A program made the translations under genes and the position numbers. Below, piece by piece: positions 29,423 to 41,583 of a DNA stretch of 64,000 bases (the first letter of the stretch is position 1; every line of letters begins with the position of its first letter). This DNA is from Chitinophaga pinensis (lineage in GTDB: Bacteria > Bacteroidota > Bacteroidia > UKL13-3): contig CAMBSD010000008.1 of the NCBI GenBank assembly GCA_945870425.1, forward strand, positions 1-64,000, in the 5' to 3' direction. The notes beneath the pieces were generated by a model. The model made no database searches. It was not told the DNA's origin and was given only the letters and a program-made list of their open reading frames with translations.

Positions 29423-32400
29423 CTAGGGTCTTATAGCAACAATACCATTGTTCGAATTGATATCCAAAATCGGATAGTCGTTAAAATCAACTGAAGCATC
29501 CCCGTTCAAATCTGTTGGCAAATAACCTATATCACCATTGTTGCTTCCAATATCTAATGGAGGATAATCATTGAAATCAACAGACCCATCTTGGTTTATA
29601 TCACCATTAAATATTAGAAATACCCCAGCACCATTGTTTTTTAGATTATCTCCTAACGCTTTGTTTTGTGCATTCGTAAAATTGTAAACAATAGCATTAT
29701 CTAACATCACTGGATTAGCCGACCAAGTCTCAATGCTTCCTCTATGGGTTACACCAATTGATAAACGGGTATTCGCAATATAATAAGGTATTATAATTTC
29801 GCAAAAGCCAGCTGTGTCAATGATTTTTTTTGATGAATAAATAGCACTTTGTGAACTGCTATCATAAAAAAGTATATGTATACTGTCGCATAGATTTAAT
29901 GGACTTATTCCATCTACATTGTTTAATACACTTCTCAGTTTTCCATTTTCATAGTAGTCTTCAAAGTATATTTTCATTCGAACTTTCACATCTACATATA
30001 CCGTAACACTGTCCATGCATGAATTGATTCCATTGCTTACAGTGCAATAATAATTGGTGGTTTTTGTTGGACTAACAATATTGTTTTTTGTATTTGTGCC
30101 ATTGCTCCAAACAAAAGTTAATGGGCTTGATAGAACTCCGGTAGGAGAGGGGTTTATGCTGATGATACTTCCTGCCACAATATTGGTATCAGGGTTATTA
30201 ATGCCCACATTTATCATGCTCAGCAAAACACTATCTGTAGCAGAACATTTGCCATTACTAACCGTAACTTTATACCAACCCGATTGAATAGGATTAATTA
30301 TTTGCGAGGCAGAGCCGGTGTTCCATAGATAACTGCTGTATCCATTACCTGCATTTAATTGATAAGAGCTTCCACATACCCGCAATGTATCAGCAAAAGC
30401 ATTATAGGGCAATGGGCTAATAGTTAAGTTAAGTGTTACGATGCTATCGCAACCCCATTTAGCAGCACCAAAAAGGGTTTTGTTATAGGAACCACTGCTG
30501 CTATAAGTTAAGCCATTCCATGTATAAGCTGAGCATGAAGTAACATTGATACTTGATGCGCCTTGAGGGCAAACCGCAGTTACTTGCACATTATCTAAAG
30601 ATATTTTAGGTCTTGATCCCGTAGTTCCACCCACTCCATTGTAGCAATAAAACCTTAACCTACATGTGGATACATTATGAAAAGAGTTTGGTAGTTTTAC
30701 TCTGATATTGGCGCTTCCGGCTACATTGTTTGTGGCAGTATAAGGCAAATTATTTCCGGTTAATTCCGTAAAATTAATTCCATCTATAGATGCAAATACT
30801 TTTAGCACTTCGGCTCTGTTTCCAGTGCTGTTGATCACTGTAGCTACATCAAAAAATAAACTGTCTGCATTTCTATTGGTATAATCAAGTAATAAATCTA
30901 TGGCACAGGCAGTGGTATTGTTTGTACTATTAGTGCTAAGCAAAACAATAGTTCCTGCTACATTTCCACTCAAACTTCCTCTTTGCACCCCCGAGGCCGA
31001 TGAAGAGGTTTGAAAGCTGCTTGTGGCCGTTGTAATTGCTGTTGCATTAGGAATGGTTCCTGCTCCTGTTGCCACGCCTGTCCATCTTCCTGCTCCAAGT
31101 CCAGCTGCAAATCCATTGGTCCAATTAGCAATGTCTGTAAAGTTTTCAGTATAGCTTAGGTTACTTCTGTATCGCATCTTTACCGGCCCTGTCTCACTAA
31201 TAGTAATAAGGCTTCCTGCGTTTGCAGGGTTGTTACCAGTTACACTTGTAGTACCACTAAAAGTAAAACTACTAAAGGGTACAGTTGCCATGCCAAGTGT
31301 ATTGCTTGGTGTGGCGGCAATGGCAATATCTGCAGTTAATAAAATATACCATGTACCAATACTTAAGGATTGAGATAATCCCGAAACCGAAACGGTTCCT
31401 CCTGAGCTAACTACGGCTTGTGAACTGCCCAATTGCGTTGCCCCCGACAAAGTATTGGCATTGTTTATCCAAAATTTAAAACCATTGCTTTGTATATCCG
31501 CTGGTGTATAGCTTCCCGCTGTTGTTAAACTTATACTTGTAAGTGTGGCAATTTCTAATGAATCTACTAATTGAATACTCCCTATTATTGTATTGGGATT
31601 ATTGGTTGAAACAATTGTATTTCCTATGCTTGCAGTGGATATACCCACCGTAGGTGATTGAATGGCATAGTTCTTACAAAGGGTGTCATTTGTGGGTATG
31701 GTATCACCTGATGTTTTTACCCAAGTACACAGTTTATAACTACCCAAACCATTTATATTTAATGGGCTTGCAAAGGTGTATGTATAGAGTGAGGTTGTAT
31801 CTATATTCAAACCAGTAAGCGAAACACTTACAGCGGCATTGTTATTCAATCTATAAGAAAACGTGGCTGTATCTATTTTACGTGTGCCTGTGTTTTTGAT
31901 ACGAATCGCAACTGTATCAAGACCATTAACTAAGGTTTGTGGTTTTACAATTGCATCTAATTTTAGGTCTTTGTATTTTGCTGCAGTTATTGTTGGAGTT
32001 ACACTGTCTTTTATAGCAAGCCATATAGTAGCATTCATAATTAATTTTTGGTGATTGCCTCCGGCATCACCTAGCCAACCATCATATAACACATCGCCAT
32101 TATCGCCACTTCCATCATCACATGGAGAGCTATCTCCAATGGCTGCTATTTTTCCTCTGCCATAGCGCGCATATGCAACCATCACATTGTTATTACCAAA
32201 TGAAGAACCTGTATTATAAATTACACCCTTCACCGTTGTATTCACACTTGGGTTGATGGTCATGGTGGTACCATTGCTATATTTTACTTGCGTTACATTT
32301 CCCATAGGTCCATTTAATATGGAATCATTCGGAAGATTGCGAACATTGCTGCTCGTTACAGAAATATTAGCCAAGTTAAATGTCATACCAAATGGGTTGT

Positions 32401-32959
32401 TTTGAACGGAGTTATTGCCCATCAAATCATTGAGTATCTCGGGTGAATCGTATGAGTCGTTGTTTCTATCTGAAATGGTATGATCGGCAACCATAAAAAG
32501 TCCTCCACCATTTTGAACGAAATTAATGATGGCTGTTTTTTCGACAGCCGTAAACATGATATTAGGTTCACACAAAATAAATACTTTGTAATTGCTTAAG
32601 TCTTGTGGGTTAGATGTATTGCCATAAGTAATGGCGCCATTGTAGGGAAGTGATTCAACGTAGTATCCCTTTTTAACACAATCTATACCCCAAGCGGAAA
32701 GCCCGCCTTTCCAATAGCTTTGAGGGGTGCTAGCTGTTATTCCTGATTGTGCAGGCGTGGGTATGCGTTGGGCATTGCCTTCGCTGCCTCCAAGGCTCGC
32801 ACCCGGATTCCACCTTAGGTTATTCAAATCTTCATCAATCACCCAATCAGCATTACCGGCTGTTTCAGCTTTGGTAGCATCAAACAAAATTTTTATGCTT
32901 TGTGCTGGCAAATACCATGAACAAAAACATAAAACAAACAAAAACACGCACTTCTTCAT
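29423..32959 (-). CDS. Very large secreted multidomain protein with dockerin-like tail
   Basis: Protein of 1178 residues with a signal peptide (CVFLFVLCFCSWYLPA-Q). Residues about 20-310 form a domain with an amidotransferase/ThuA-like feel (VFILCEPNIMFTAVEKTAIINFVQNGGGLFMVADHT). Repeated beta-sandwich and discoidin-type segments follow. The last 60 residues contain two EF-hand-like repeats (DINQDGSVDFNDYP and DLNGDASVDFNDYP), ending VAIRP. This dockerin-like tail is found on many Bacteroidota surface proteins. It does not look like a standard T9SS type A domain. Exported, probably surface-attached or released; the function is unknown. Confidence 0.7.
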   Translation of the reverse strand: MKKCVFLFVLCFCSWYLPAQSIKILFDATKAETAGNADWVIDEDLNNLRWNPGASLGGSEGNAQRIPTPAQSGITASTPQSYWKGGLSAWGIDCVKKGYYVESLPYNGAITYGNTSNPQDLSNYKVFILCEPNIMFTAVEKTAIINFVQNGGGLFMVADHTISDRNNDSYDSPEILNDLMGNNSVQNNPFGMTFNLANISVTSSNVRNLPNDSILNGPMGNVTQVKYSNGTTMTINPSVNTTVKGVIYNTGSSFGNNNVMVAYARYGRGKIAAIGDSSPCDDGSGDNGDVLYDGWLGDAGGNHQKLIMNATIWLAIKDSVTPTITAAKYKDLKLDAIVKPQTLVNGLDTVAIRIKNTGTRKIDTATFSYRLNNNAAVSVSLTGLNIDTTSLYTYTFASPLNINGLGSYKLCTWVKTSGDTIPTNDTLCKNYAIQSPTVGISTASIGNTIVSTNNPNTIIGSIQLVDSLEIATLTSISLTTAGSYTPADIQSNGFKFWINNANTLSGATQLGSSQAVVSSGGTVSVSGLSQSLSIGTWYILLTADIAIAATPSNTLGMATVPFSSFTFSGTTSVTGNNPANAGSLITISETGPVKMRYRSNLSYTENFTDIANWTNGFAAGLGAGRWTGVATGAGTIPNATAITTATSSFQTSSSASGVQRGSLSGNVAGTIVLLSTNSTNNTTACAIDLLLDYTNRNADSLFFDVATVINSTGNRAEVLKVFASIDGINFTELTGNNLPYTATNNVAGSANIRVKLPNSFHNVSTCRLRFYCYNGVGGTTGSRPKISLDNVQVTAVCPQGASSINVTSCSAYTWNGLTYSSSGSYNKTLFGAAKWGCDSIVTLNLTISPLPYNAFADTLRVCGSSYQLNAGNGYSSYLWNTGSASQIINPIQSGWYKVTVSNGKCSATDSVLLSMINVGINNPDTNIVAGSIISINPSPTGVLSSPLTFVWSNGTNTKNNIVSPTKTTNYYCTVSNGINSCMDSVTVYVDVKVRMKIYFEDYYENGKLRSVLNNVDGISPLNLCDSIHILFYDSSSQSAIYSSKKIIDTAGFCEIIIPYYIANTRLSIGVTHRGSIETWSANPVMLDNAIVYNFTNAQNKALGDNLKNNGAGVFLIFNGDINQDGSVDFNDYPPLDIGSNNGDIGYLPTDLNGDASVDFNDYPILDINSNNGIVAIRP

Positions 32960-33416: not shown

Positions 33417-34220
33417 ATGGAAATTTTAAGTTATAAATTTACGCTTATCAACTTGATAGATGTGCTGTTGGTGCTGGTGCTATCATGGCAACTTTTTAAG
33501 CGCCTAAAAGGCAGTTTAGCCTTTAACATCCTCATAGGGCTTATTACCATTTATATATTTTGGTTGTTGGTAAAATACTTCGAAATGCCTTTGCTTGAAA
33601 AGATTTTGGGGCAATTTACTCAAGTAGGTATTATCGCAGTTCTAATCGTTTTTCAACAAGAAATTCGGAAATTCTTACTCATTATAGGTCGTACTTCATT
33701 TTTGGCAGAGAATAAAAACTGGTGGAATATTTTTCCTTGGAAATGGAAGATTGAAGAAAGTTTTTCAAACAACTACGAAGACATAGTGGATGCTTGCATA
33801 GCCTTGGCTGAAACGAATTCGGGGGCCATCATCGTATTACCAAAAACGAGCGAGATGCGAATGATTGCTGCCACAGGTGAGATTATTGAAGGTGAAGTAA
33901 CAAAGCGCTTGCTCTTAGCTATTTTTAACAAAACCAGTCCTTTGCATGATGGTGCTGTCATTATTAGCAAAGGTAAAATTAAAGCTGCCAATTGTGTTCT
34001 TCCGGTAAGCGATAACCCTGACTTGCTTAATAAATATGGCCTTAGGCATTTATCGGCTATTGGTATTACCGAACAAACAGATGCGGTGGTTCTTGTAGTG
34101 AGTGAGGAGCGCGGTACCGTTTCATTTGTTAAAGAAGGAAAGATTACGGAAAACCTAAGAACAGACCACTTGGTAGAGTTGCTTAATGCAGAATTTGCCA
34201 AAGAAATGTTGAACATATAA
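33417..34220 (+). CDS. cdaA: Diadenylate cyclase CdaA
   Basis: Membrane diadenylate cyclase of 267 residues making c-di-AMP from two ATP. Three hydrophobic helices (about 10-90) precede the DAC domain. The DGA metal/ATP motif is intact (PLHDGAVII, 178-180). The second signature, normally RHR, reads RHL here (GLRHLSAIGI, 210-212). The rest (EQTDAVVLVVSEERGTVSF) is standard. No ybbR-type gene (cdaR) follows, as usual in Bacteroidota. c-di-AMP normally controls potassium and turgor, and an antiporter with a UspA partner occurs at 56.8 kb, though no direct link is visible. Confidence 0.9.
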   Translation: MEILSYKFTLINLIDVLLVLVLSWQLFKRLKGSLAFNILIGLITIYIFWLLVKYFEMPLLEKILGQFTQVGIIAVLIVFQQEIRKFLLIIGRTSFLAENKNWWNIFPWKWKIEESFSNNYEDIVDACIALAETNSGAIIVLPKTSEMRMIAATGEIIEGEVTKRLLLAIFNKTSPLHDGAVIISKGKIKAANCVLPVSDNPDLLNKYGLRHLSAIGITEQTDAVVLVVSEERGTVSFVKEGKITENLRTDHLVELLNAEFAKEMLNI

Positions 34221-34316
34221 AATTCATGTATTTTCATTGTTTGAATTAAGAGATTAAATTCAAAAAACTTTCCCACAAAATTTTATTAATCAAACAAATT
34301 TTTGAAATTTGCCATC

Positions 34317-34685
34317 ATGGAGATTAAAGGAAAAGCAATTCAAATGTTGCCATTGGTTACAGGACAAGGTAAAAATGGCGAATGGCGCAAGCAAGAGTTT
34401 ATTATTGAAACTGGCGACCAATACCCTAAAAAAATATGTTTAAGTCTTTGGGGTGATAAAATTACCCAAAACCCGTTTTCAATGGGTGAAGAAATAACAG
34501 TGTTTTTTGATGCTGAAAGTCGCGAATATAATGGACGATGGTTTACAGAATTAAAAGCTTGGAAAGTGCAAACTGGACAAGCTGCGGCACCTCCAAGAAC
34601 AGCAAATCCATCACCTGCATCAAACCCAAATTTCGAGCCTGCTACATTTACTGAAGAATCGGCTTCTGATGATTTGCCGTTTTAA
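34317..34685 (+). CDS. DUF3127 protein with SSB-like C-terminal tip
   Basis: Protein of 122 residues, family DUF3127, nearly restricted to Bacteroidota. The core is an OB-like beta barrel (MEIKGKAIQMLP, QEFIIETGDQYPKKICLSLWGD, EEITVFFDAESREYNGRWFTEL). A Pro/Ala linker then leads to an acidic end, SASDDLPF, that looks like the DDDIPF tip by which SSB recruits repair proteins. The ATG at 34317 is preferred over the TTG at 34302: it begins the conserved core and is five bases after the TTTG of a -7-like motif (possible leaderless mRNA). The stop is followed without a gap by folA. Confidence 0.75.
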   Translation: MEIKGKAIQMLPLVTGQGKNGEWRKQEFIIETGDQYPKKICLSLWGDKITQNPFSMGEEITVFFDAESREYNGRWFTELKAWKVQTGQAAAPPRTANPSPASNPNFEPATFTEESASDDLPF

Positions 34686-35174
34686 ATGAAAATATCAAGC
34701 ATAGTGGCGGCAGATGAATCGAATGGAATTGGAAAAAACAACCAATTGCTTTGTCACCTGCCTGCCGATCTAAAATATTTTAAAAACCTTACGACCCATC
34801 ATGCCATATTGATGGGTCGTAAAACTTTTGAAAGTATAGGAAAACCTCTTCCTAATAGAACTAACATTATTATCTCGCGAAGTGAATTGAATATTGAAGG
34901 TACCTATTGTTTCAAGAGTATTGATGAAGGCATTTCTTTTGCCAAATCACAAAACGAATCAGAACTTTTTATCATTGGAGGAGATAGCATCTATAAGCAA
35001 TCCATGGATATACTTGATGCTGTTTATCTCACCCGCATACACCATAGCTTTGATGCTGATGCTTTTTTTCCTGCTTTGCAAGAAGAGTATTGGCAATTAA
35101 ATCAAAACGAGTTTCATGCTGCTGACGAGAAAAATAAATTTGATTTTTCTTTTCAGACATACAATCGAAAATAA
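34686..35174 (+). CDS. folA: Dihydrofolate reductase
   Basis: NADPH-dependent dihydrofolate reductase of 162 residues, regenerating tetrahydrofolate for purine and thymidylate synthesis. It shows ISSIVAADESNGIGKNNQLLCHLPADLKYFK (active-site region), the NADPH-binding MGRKTFESIGKPLPNR, IIGGDSIYKQ and the closing FDFSFQTYNRK. The length is standard. The ATG begins at the base following the DUF3127 stop, so the two are coupled; purH follows 65 bases later with its own -7 box. The acidic Asp of the active site (DLKYF) is present. Confidence 0.95.
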   Translation: MKISSIVAADESNGIGKNNQLLCHLPADLKYFKNLTTHHAILMGRKTFESIGKPLPNRTNIIISRSELNIEGTYCFKSIDEGISFAKSQNESELFIIGGDSIYKQSMDILDAVYLTRIHHSFDADAFFPALQEEYWQLNQNEFHAADEKNKFDFSFQTYNRK

Positions 35175-36836: not shown

Positions 36837-39155
36837 TTAATTACCCATTTCGCTTACAAAATGTATTAGCATTAGGTGTAAATCATCTTTACTAAACTCA
36901 TCACCAAACTCACTCATGGCAGCATCAATCATGTTTTCAGGAGTTGTTCTAAAGAAATCCATCACATAACCAATTGTTTCTTCATCAGCCAAGTCGTGTA
37001 GGTATCTTTTCAAATTTAGCTTGGTACCAGAATACACGATATTCTCAATCTCATTCAGCAATTCTTCTTTGCTCATATTCTGACTACGAGCTATATCATC
37101 TAAACCTATTTTTTTATCAATATTGGTGATGATGGCAATTTTCTTAGCCGATTTGTTTACCAAAGATTTGATGATAATATCGTTTGATTTCTCGATATTA
37201 TTATCTTTAACATACTTGGCAATGGCTTCAACAAATGGCTTTCCGAATTTGCTTGCTTTACCCGGACTTACACCAGGTATTTTCTGCAATTCTTCCATAT
37301 CTGTTGGGTAACGGAATGCCATTTCTTGTAAAGTTCCATCTTGGAAAATGATATAAGGAGGAAGATTCTTTTCTTTGGCAACCTTTTTCACCAAAACCTT
37401 TAAATCGTTGTATAAGTCCTCATCATACACATTCTCCACTTGAGAATTATCTTCATCATCATCGTAAAATTTCTCAAAAGTACGATCAATTGAAACTTCA
37501 ATTTTGACAGGTTTCTTTAACCACTCTTCACCTTTTTCATTGACACTTAACAACCCATAATTTTCGATGTTTTTGGTTATATATCCATTCAGCAAAACAA
37601 CCCTAACTACTGATTTCCAATAATTCTCATCCTTGTCTTTGCCTTTTCCAAATTGAGGAAGTGTTTCATGGCCACTTAATGTAACTTCATGTGATTTTTT
37701 ACCTACGATAATCTCACAAATGGTTTTGATGATATGTTTTCCTTTAACAGCGTTGATAGTTTCCAATACCAATTTAGCTGCATCTGTTGCGTCCTCTTTT
37801 TCTTTCGGATGGCGGTGGTTATCACACATACCTTGGCATTTGTTTTCGTCAAACTCTTCCCCAAAATAATGTAATAAGAATTTACGTCTACATGCTGAGG
37901 TTTCAGCAAAGGCCTGTGTTTCAAAAATCAACAACTCGCCTATTTCTCTCTCGGCAACAGGTTTGTCTTTTAAAAATTTCTCTAATTTATCTACATCAGC
38001 AGGATTATAGTAAAGTACACACTCACCCTCTAATCCATCTCTACCTGCGCGACCAGTTTCTTGGTAGTACCCTTCAATACTTTTTGGAATATCGTAGTGA
38101 ATAACAAAACGTACGTCTGGTTTGTCAATACCCATCCCAAATGCGATGGTAGCAACAATCACGTCAGCATCTTCCATCAAAAACTTATCTTGATGATCCG
38201 CTCTCACCTTGGCATCAAGACCCGCATGGTATGGTAATGCCTTAATTCCGTTGGCTACCAACATACTCGAAATTTCTTCTACCTTTTTACGGCTTAAGCA
38301 ATAAATAATTCCAGATTTATGTTTTTTAGGTTTTATATAGGCAATGATATCCTTAATGGCATCACCTTTCTTTCCTTTTGACCTAACTTCGTAATATAGA
38401 TTAGATCTATTGAATGAAGATTTATAGACCTTTGCGTCCAACATCTGTAAGTTTTTCTGAATATCTGCTTGCACCTTTGGTGTAGCAGTAGCAGTTAAGG
38501 CAATAACCGGAACATCTTCTATTTCCTTAATCATGGCTTTAATTCTGCGGTATTCAGGTCTAAAATCATGACCCCATTCTGAAATACAATGGGCTTCGTC
38601 AACAGCCACAAAAGAAATTTTAATTGATTTAAGGAAATCAATTGTTTCATCTTTTTTAAGTGTTTCAGGGGCTATATACAGCATTTTTGTGTGCCCAGCA
38701 CTGATGTCATTTTTAACTTGGGCAATTTCGGTTTTATTTAATGATGAGTTTAAAAAATGAGCCACATTTTCATTTCCAAGTGATCTAATTTGATCTACTT
38801 GGTTCTTCATCAGAGCAATAAGGGGTGAAATGATAATTGCTGTACCTTGACTAATTAATGCAGGCAACTGGTAACACATAGATTTTCCACCACCAGTTGG
38901 CATAATAACAAAAATGTCTTGTCCTTCTAATAGATTGCGTATAATTTTCTCCTGTTCATCTTTAAACGAATCGAACCCAAAATACTCTTGGAGTGCCTTT
39001 TTTAGGTCTAAAACACCAATAGTAGGTACCTTAGGTTTTACAGCACGGCTTACTATTTCTGTTGGTTCAGCGATCACAACTTCCGTAGTAACAGACGTAG
39101 TAACTTTTACAGTTTTGGTAGACTTTGTTTCTTTTTTTTGCTTAACATCCTTCAT
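36837..39155 (-). CDS. recQ: ATP-dependent DNA helicase RecQ (long form)
   Basis: 3'-5' DNA helicase of the RecQ family acting in recombination and replication repair. The helicase core shows the Q motif and FGFDSFKDEQEKIIRNLL, Walker A MPTGGGKSMCYQLP, the DEAH box VDEAHCISEWGHDFRPEYR and motif VI QETGRAGRDG. Zinc cysteines are visible (CRRKFLLHYFGE, CQGMCDNH), followed by winged helix and an HRDC domain (about 600-680, IPGVSPGKASKFG). At 772 residues it exceeds E. coli RecQ (609) because of an additional C-terminal helical extension. A 40-residue charged N-terminal leader (KKETKSTKTVKVTTSV) precedes the core. Confidence 0.95.
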   Translation of the reverse strand: MKDVKQKKETKSTKTVKVTTSVTTEVVIAEPTEIVSRAVKPKVPTIGVLDLKKALQEYFGFDSFKDEQEKIIRNLLEGQDIFVIMPTGGGKSMCYQLPALISQGTAIIISPLIALMKNQVDQIRSLGNENVAHFLNSSLNKTEIAQVKNDISAGHTKMLYIAPETLKKDETIDFLKSIKISFVAVDEAHCISEWGHDFRPEYRRIKAMIKEIEDVPVIALTATATPKVQADIQKNLQMLDAKVYKSSFNRSNLYYEVRSKGKKGDAIKDIIAYIKPKKHKSGIIYCLSRKKVEEISSMLVANGIKALPYHAGLDAKVRADHQDKFLMEDADVIVATIAFGMGIDKPDVRFVIHYDIPKSIEGYYQETGRAGRDGLEGECVLYYNPADVDKLEKFLKDKPVAEREIGELLIFETQAFAETSACRRKFLLHYFGEEFDENKCQGMCDNHRHPKEKEDATDAAKLVLETINAVKGKHIIKTICEIIVGKKSHEVTLSGHETLPQFGKGKDKDENYWKSVVRVVLLNGYITKNIENYGLLSVNEKGEEWLKKPVKIEVSIDRTFEKFYDDDEDNSQVENVYDEDLYNDLKVLVKKVAKEKNLPPYIIFQDGTLQEMAFRYPTDMEELQKIPGVSPGKASKFGKPFVEAIAKYVKDNNIEKSNDIIIKSLVNKSAKKIAIITNIDKKIGLDDIARSQNMSKEELLNEIENIVYSGTKLNLKRYLHDLADEETIGYVMDFFRTTPENMIDAAMSEFGDEFSKDDLHLMLIHFVSEMGN

Positions 39156-41509: not shown

Positions 41510-41583
41510 CTCCCTGACCTGGACTCGAACCAGGGACCTAGTGATTAACAGTCACTCGCTCTAACCAGCTGAGCTATCAAGGA
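41510..41583 (-). tRNA. tRNA-Asn (anticodon GTT)
   Basis: The minus strand folds into a cloverleaf. Acceptor TCCTTGA (41577-41583) pairs with TCAGGGA (41511-41517) including two G-T pairs, and the discriminator is G. The anticodon loop reads CTGTTAA giving GUU (Asn), and the T-loop is GGTTCGAGTCC. CCA is not encoded. It has its own promoter (41603-41633) and terminator. Confidence 0.95.

Follow-up and report, generated by a model that had tools for sequence, protein, structure and literature searches.

The DUF3127 ORF of the 64,000-nt window (the whole stretch of DNA that was analysed) encoded a 122-residue protein running from MEIKGKAIQM to SASDDLPF, composed of a core, a linker, and a C-terminal tip (Table 1); an in-frame TTG at 34302 offered a possible alternative start, and the homologues begin at MEI. 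Residues 2-85 scored 111 bits with Pfam PF11325 (DUF3127), whose cut-off is 27, and a profile search of NCBIfam with the protein gave no match. The gene lay between a cdaA-type gene and folA, and its stop codon and the folA start formed a TAA|ATG junction with zero gap. Elsewhere in the window, the Rfam matches were two tRNA genes only, at 103-177 and 41510-41583 (-), and a 1178-aa secreted-like protein (29423-32959, minus strand; no Pfam match above its cut-off) carried at its C-terminus two DxNxDGxxDFND-type repeats, which we take to be reminiscent of dockerin calcium motifs.

Table 1. Features of the DUF3127 locus, SSB genes of the same genome, and recombination genes near DUF3127 in phages
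Feature	Location	Strand	Properties or evidence
DUF3127 ORF	34317-34685	+	ATG start at 34317, TAA stop (34683-34685), 122 aa
Predicted SSB-type OB-fold core	34317-34574	+	Residues 1-86; Pfam, AF2, Foldseek, VIA, aromatic columns
Disordered linker	34575-34667	+	Residues 87-117; Pro/Ala rich, low pLDDT, poor conservation
C-terminal tip DDLPF, SSB-Ct type	34668-34682	+	Conservation and genome-wide rarity
folA (dihydrofolate reductase)	34686-35174	+	DHFR_1, 197.8 bits
cdaA-type diadenylate cyclase	33417-34220	+	DAC and CdaA_N Pfam matches; 96 bp upstream of DUF3127 ORF
RecQ helicase with RQC and HRDC domains	36837-39155	-	Pfam DEAD, RQC, HRDC
Canonical SSB of the genome	L003:1375-1815		147 aa, tailed (SDDLPF)
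Second PF00436 protein of the genome	L002:1486-1827	+	113 aa, without acidic tail
Phage P12024L			Erf and exonuclease directly upstream of DUF3127
Phage 11b			Erf near DUF3127
Phage Nekkels_1			Exonuclease and NinG near DUF3127
Phage phi19:3			RecT near DUF3127
Phage Fpv5			RusA near DUF3127
Phage Panino			Erf and exonuclease VIII near DUF3127
Phage snork9-1			PF05766 recombination protein near DUF3127
Phage Harreka_1			Erf, RecE and NinG near DUF3127

The window genes folA, cdaA, purH, and recQ were used as tblastn queries against 119 other DUF3127 loci (109 bacterial, of which 29 had short flanks of about 1.5 kb and some others ended at a contig edge, and 10 phage), and none of the four was found beside DUF3127, nor was any in the 23 loci of the same GTDB family within flanks of about 1.5 kb. 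When the neighbouring ORFs were clustered, the commonest family occurred in at most 10 loci (6 within 400 bp), and hence no shared bacterial neighbour points to a pathway. A conserved operon around DUF3127 was thus rejected, the window neighbours being absent from the other loci and no family recurring widely. The zero-gap coupling to folA that had been pointed out from the sequence is real as a junction but local, and it was given no functional weight because it was seen at no other locus examined. The window RecQ is a possible partner of the SSB-type tip of the DUF3127 protein; a RecQ gene beside DUF3127 was not found by tblastn in the other 119 loci.

An AlphaFold2 (AF2) model was generated with the window protein aligned to 49 homologues. 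Blocks over residues 1-80 had pLDDT 89-95, the linker and tail were of low confidence, and the predicted elements (strands 2-10, 14-18, 21-32, and 39-45, short helix 48-51, and strands 59-71 and 74-86) followed the OB order. Foldseek against PDB gave 35 matches at E 0.001 or below, headed by Bacillus subtilis SsbA (E 2.8e-4), Streptomyces SSB, PriB, and mycobacterial SSB, and VIA comparison matched the model to yeast Rim1 (Z 12.1, 2.2 Å over 85), Salinibacter SSB (Z 11.3, 1.9 Å over 84), and Bordetella PriB 3klw (Z 11.1, 2.2 Å over 82). In a structure search of viral models, DUF3127 phage proteins ranked first and phage SSBs next. The sequence-only reading had proposed an OB-like core and suggested structure prediction against SSB and OB folds as its check; the prediction (pLDDT about 90, matches to solved SSBs and PriB at Z about 11-12) bore this out, in that the core was modelled as an SSB-type OB fold, which also answers to the PriB-type fold, and an unrelated fold was not seen.

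PriB ranked with SSB in both fold searches, and the fold scores do not separate the two since they are tied (Z 10.4-11.1 in PriB rows, 10.4-12.1 in SSB rows). PriB and DUF3127 share a compact OB domain, and the tail is found only in DUF3127. A PriB-like primosome factor, whose OB core would mainly bind PriA and ssDNA at forks with the tip strengthening this as in engineered PriB-SSBc, is nevertheless unlikely in our judgement: the window's genome has PriA and gave 0 matches at E up to 1 to PF22657 (PriB/SSB_1), a model that we take to cover PriB, and a 'primosomal protein' family recurred beside phage DUF3127 (4 of 147 ORFs), but PriB lacks an SSB-type tail and the phage surroundings are as much recombination as primosome. 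The available part of one source (PMC8509808) bears on both sides, describing a PriB-SSBc chimera that bound ssDNA better than PriB and stimulated PriA 22-fold (PriB, 15-fold; SSB, 4-fold), and reporting PriB only from beta- and some gamma-proteobacteria.

The tip was assessed in genomic homologues chosen by core-only profiles, which is the fairer test of the tail because selection by the whole protein favours tails. An acidic residue shortly upstream of x-Pro-Phe at the stop codon was present in 69 of 69 such homologues (29/29 of L004-L032 and 40/40 of L253-L292, the latter chosen to take in weak matches and varied families); the 80 homologues fetched with the whole protein (L033-L112), a set biased toward tails, all terminated in Pro-Phe. 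In the 50-row alignment the mean top-residue fraction was lowest in the linker (0.30), higher in the core (0.67), and highest in the five-residue tip (0.95), and the family linkers contained 21% P and 19% A. A scan of the 2.96-Mb genome for [DE]-[LIMVF]-P-F plus TRR returned 20 places, only two of which ended an ORF of at least 60 aa at its true stop, namely the canonical SSB (...NQSDDLPF) and the DUF3127 protein (...SASDDLPF), with the last six residues SDDLPF in common. The Pro/Ala/Ser linker and DDLPF end noted from the sequence were accordingly found again as a Pro/Ala-rich linker and an SSB-type tip, and the protein has the disordered linker and acidic tip ending in Pro-Phe of an SSB.

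The phage members were divided with respect to the tail. All nine phage DUF3127 ends read had the tip (DDLPF, DDVPF, DNLPF, or NDLPF), in proteins that share only about 27-33% identity with the window protein. The 80 IMG/VR loci comprised 46 with an acidic tip, 2 with another Pro-Phe end, 31 with neither, and 1 cut (by distinct protein, 34, 2, and 27 of 63, respectively). Many of the 31 belonged to a tail-less clade whose proteins are about 86 residues long and end in KAWKI or KCWKI, and a few others of the 31 had DDLPY or a tip extended by one residue (DDLPFD, DDLPFN). The expected conservation of the tail therefore held in the 69 genomic homologues chosen by core and failed in one phage clade: the sampled bacterial copies all keep the tip, which is dispensable in one phage lineage. 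The tail-less clade is a natural core-only version that lends itself to comparison with the tailed form. The model of one tail-less protein, L209, had pLDDT 84.4 with an uncertain last third (blocks 51-77), a best Foldseek E of 4.8e-3, and a best VIA Z of 7.7, a range where a match may reflect a common arrangement; its matches were again SSB, PriB, and RPA, lending weak support to a predicted SSB-like fold. The tail-less clade (e.g., L209:4926-5183; ends KAWKI, KCWKI, or RCWKI) lay near exonuclease/RecE, NinG, and primase genes, and further loci resembled it (L210, L211, L214-L217, L219, L220, L224-L228, L230, L231, L238-L241, and L243).

The core contained conserved positions that are candidates for ssDNA contact. 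Among 53 diverse members, W23 (98%), Y36 (100%), Y71 (100%), W75 (98%), F76 (100%), and W82 (96%) were aromatic, with W, Y, and F swapping at these positions, and K48, R69, R74, and K83 were basic in 85-91%. The base-stacking aromatics of Escherichia coli SSB are given as Trp40, Trp54, Phe60, and Trp88 in the accessible part of PMC3991886. Our own mapping by whole-alignment profile pairing placed residues at two of these four sites, W45 at Phe60 and Y71 at Trp88, W45 being aromatic in 60% of the 53 members. The positions also bear on the notion of a competitor that occupies the SSB-tip pockets of repair enzymes as a regulator and has little or no DNA binding of its own: it would fit a tip conserved better than the core, but the core aromatic and basic positions are strongly kept too, and a phage clade that persists with the core and no tail agrees with a core that functions by itself, so that we consider it extremely improbable.

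Sequence comparison with SSB gave less. The window protein had no match to PF00436 (bacterial SSB) at E up to 1, phmmer of the protein against PDB gave 0 matches, and the DUF3127 profile had 16 matches among PDB sequences up to E 10, with no SSB among them; one match, at E 0.66, was an archaeal replication factor A related protein. Profile-profile comparison with canonical SSB gave 88.9% over residues 41-90 with whole alignments, and core-only hhalign gave 1.8% and 5.4%. In 2 of 10 phages the DUF3127 gene itself gave a sub-threshold PF00436 match (E 1.9e-4 and 1.7e-3). The sequences thus did not prove kinship to SSB, the PDB searches being without SSB and core-only hhalign weak; homology to SSB is therefore proposed from fold and plan, with the two phage genes as one partial sequence bridge. 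Kinship at the sequence level is weak, and the predicted fold and architecture carry the case. The weak similarity, together with the many ligands that OB folds bind, would also suit an OB-fold protein whose ligand is RNA or a protein and whose tail docks repair enzymes or merely resembles the SSB tip; 49 of the 50 VIA rows among the matches listed were SSB or PriB and not general OB folds, the genes beside phage DUF3127 serve DNA recombination and replication (see below), and the tip always sits at the very C-terminus in the genomic homologues chosen by core, all of which argue against this reading and leave it quite improbable.

The phage relatives were found in a DNA-metabolic setting. A PHROG family named 'single strand DNA binding protein', phrog_4932, matched the whole window protein (82.5 bits, residues 1-122, profile 1-117 of 117), relatives were found in Bacteroidota phages, and RefSeq phage records likewise name DUF3127 relatives single strand DNA binding protein. 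A named recombination gene lay within 6 kb of DUF3127 in 8 of 10 annotated phage loci (Table 1), and none was annotated within that distance in LoVEphage and PF672P1. Around 26 viral DUF3127 loci, 161 PHROG families matched among 147 neighbour ORFs; 17 of the 25 commonest were named, all in DNA metabolism (helicases, exonucleases, RecE, primosomal, replication initiation, DnaB, Sak4, NinB/Orf, RecT, and Erf, together with methyltransferase and dUTPase). The phage genes thus sit in recombination modules, whereas the bacterial ones are chromosomal and without conserved neighbours. None of the 10 DUF3127 phages had an SSB above the PF00436 cut-off.

The statement of the sequence-only reading that DUF3127 has no assigned function holds for Pfam and for the bacterial records, in which the copies are still 'DUF3127 domain-containing protein' (plasmid records), but not for the phage branch, already labelled SSB by phrog_4932 and RefSeq, although this labelling of the phage members could itself derive from the same similarity between profiles. 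In a literature search with subscription papers and supplements outside its coverage, no study of bacterial copies and no paper with 'PF11325' was found, and 'DUF3127' occurred only in a paper on Pantoea phage AAS23, the available text of which describes gp25 as an SSB with a DUF3127 superfamily match (PMC8004638). The SSB idea is thus partly in circulation for the phage members, and the bacterial copies remain DUF3127.

Of the 197 class genomes, 185 had a DUF3127 match with E no higher than 0.001, and in 183 the match exceeded the cut-off; the gene was usually single-copy, with 2-4 copies in 8 of the class genomes among the tabulated matches. It was present in 24 of 25 genomes of the own GTDB family, the one miss being a 70%-complete genome, and in 171 of 296 genomes of the whole phylum sample; among 14 control genomes only Bacteroides ihuae had a match. 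A DUF3127 relative occurred in 6 of 72,556 plasmid records, and the titles of related records included Bacteroidales, Tannerellaceae, Muribaculaceae, and others. PF00436 was found in 59 of 60 phylum genomes. The ends of 32 canonical SSBs were read, 30 of them from the phylum sample and two from this genome, and all but one (31) were Leu-Pro-Phe.

The window's DUF3127 protein and bacterial SSB, represented by the canonical SSB of the same genome, shared the predicted SSB-type OB fold, the disordered linker, and an identical SDDLPF end, but DUF3127 differed in the missing PF00436 match, a smaller core (about 86 versus about 105 residues), the short helix 48-51, a shorter hairpin ahead of the last strand, and its occurrence beside SSB and not instead of it. 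The SSB-like plan described from the sequence is thus upheld for the predicted fold, the linker, and the conserved tip, with binding and recruitment remaining predictions. We propose, with a probability of roughly 0.8, that DUF3127 is a divergent SSB-like family with an ssDNA-binding OB core, a linker, and a partner-docking tip, serving as a specialised second SSB; ssDNA binding, partner docking, and the specialised role are what we infer, and most likely the protein is a hub of the SSB type, additional to the main SSB, that serves recombination or replication restart. The compact SSB/PriB-type OB domain would bind ssDNA via the conserved aromatic and basic residues, and the SSB-Ct tip on its disordered Pro/Ala linker would dock the same partners as canonical SSB. 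The E. coli SSB tip binds PriA, RecQ, and others. For the same tip, the available parts of two sources describe binding of RecO and recruitment of at least 17 partners (PMC7913777, PMC10018359). Since the cell keeps a normal SSB too, the DUF3127 protein is more likely a specialised second SSB, acting in recombination, repair, or replication restart, than a bulk coating protein; the copies of phages lie in their recombination/replication modules. A further-reaching scheme, speculative though conceivable, is a two-SSB system of a coating SSB plus a near-universal DUF3127 factor that, as a natural PriB-SSBc chimera with a PriB-sized OB core and an SSB tip, would load restart and recombination enzymes, the phage copies drawing the same enzymes to phage DNA.

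Two precedents are partly comparable. Enc34 ORF6 (DUF2815), an OB protein whose C-terminal segment is unstructured, turned out to be an ssDNA-binding phage SSB according to the accessible part of PMC5686142, and it is a precedent for a DUF shown to be an SSB, although it resembles the T7 gene 2.5 protein and belongs to a different OB branch. Anabaena All4779, a 'hypothetical' protein with an OB fold, linker, and acidic tail, likewise proved to be an SSB in the portion available of PMC3976300; All4779 was proposed as the major SSB of its organism, whereas the genome with DUF3127 also has a normal tailed SSB. A gene that nearly all genomes of a major bacterial class carry, usually in one copy, is at present annotated only as a DUF; if it encodes a second SSB, repair and restart in this group would involve a factor missing from current schemes, and phage SSB annotations would gain a cellular counterpart.

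Four of the 12 class genomes without a DUF3127 match fell in one genus (g184, family f82), of which 7 genomes were sampled, 4 without detectable DUF3127 and 3 with very weak matches (E 4.5e-6 to 9.5e-4), which suggests fast divergence or loss. A second DUF3127 subfamily (L255 and L256, both of genome G290, L257, and phage L113) had QDK or NDK in place of WGDK, and GREW/GRAW...KxYFN where others have SREYNGRWFT; genome G290 carried one DUF3127 copy of each subfamily type.
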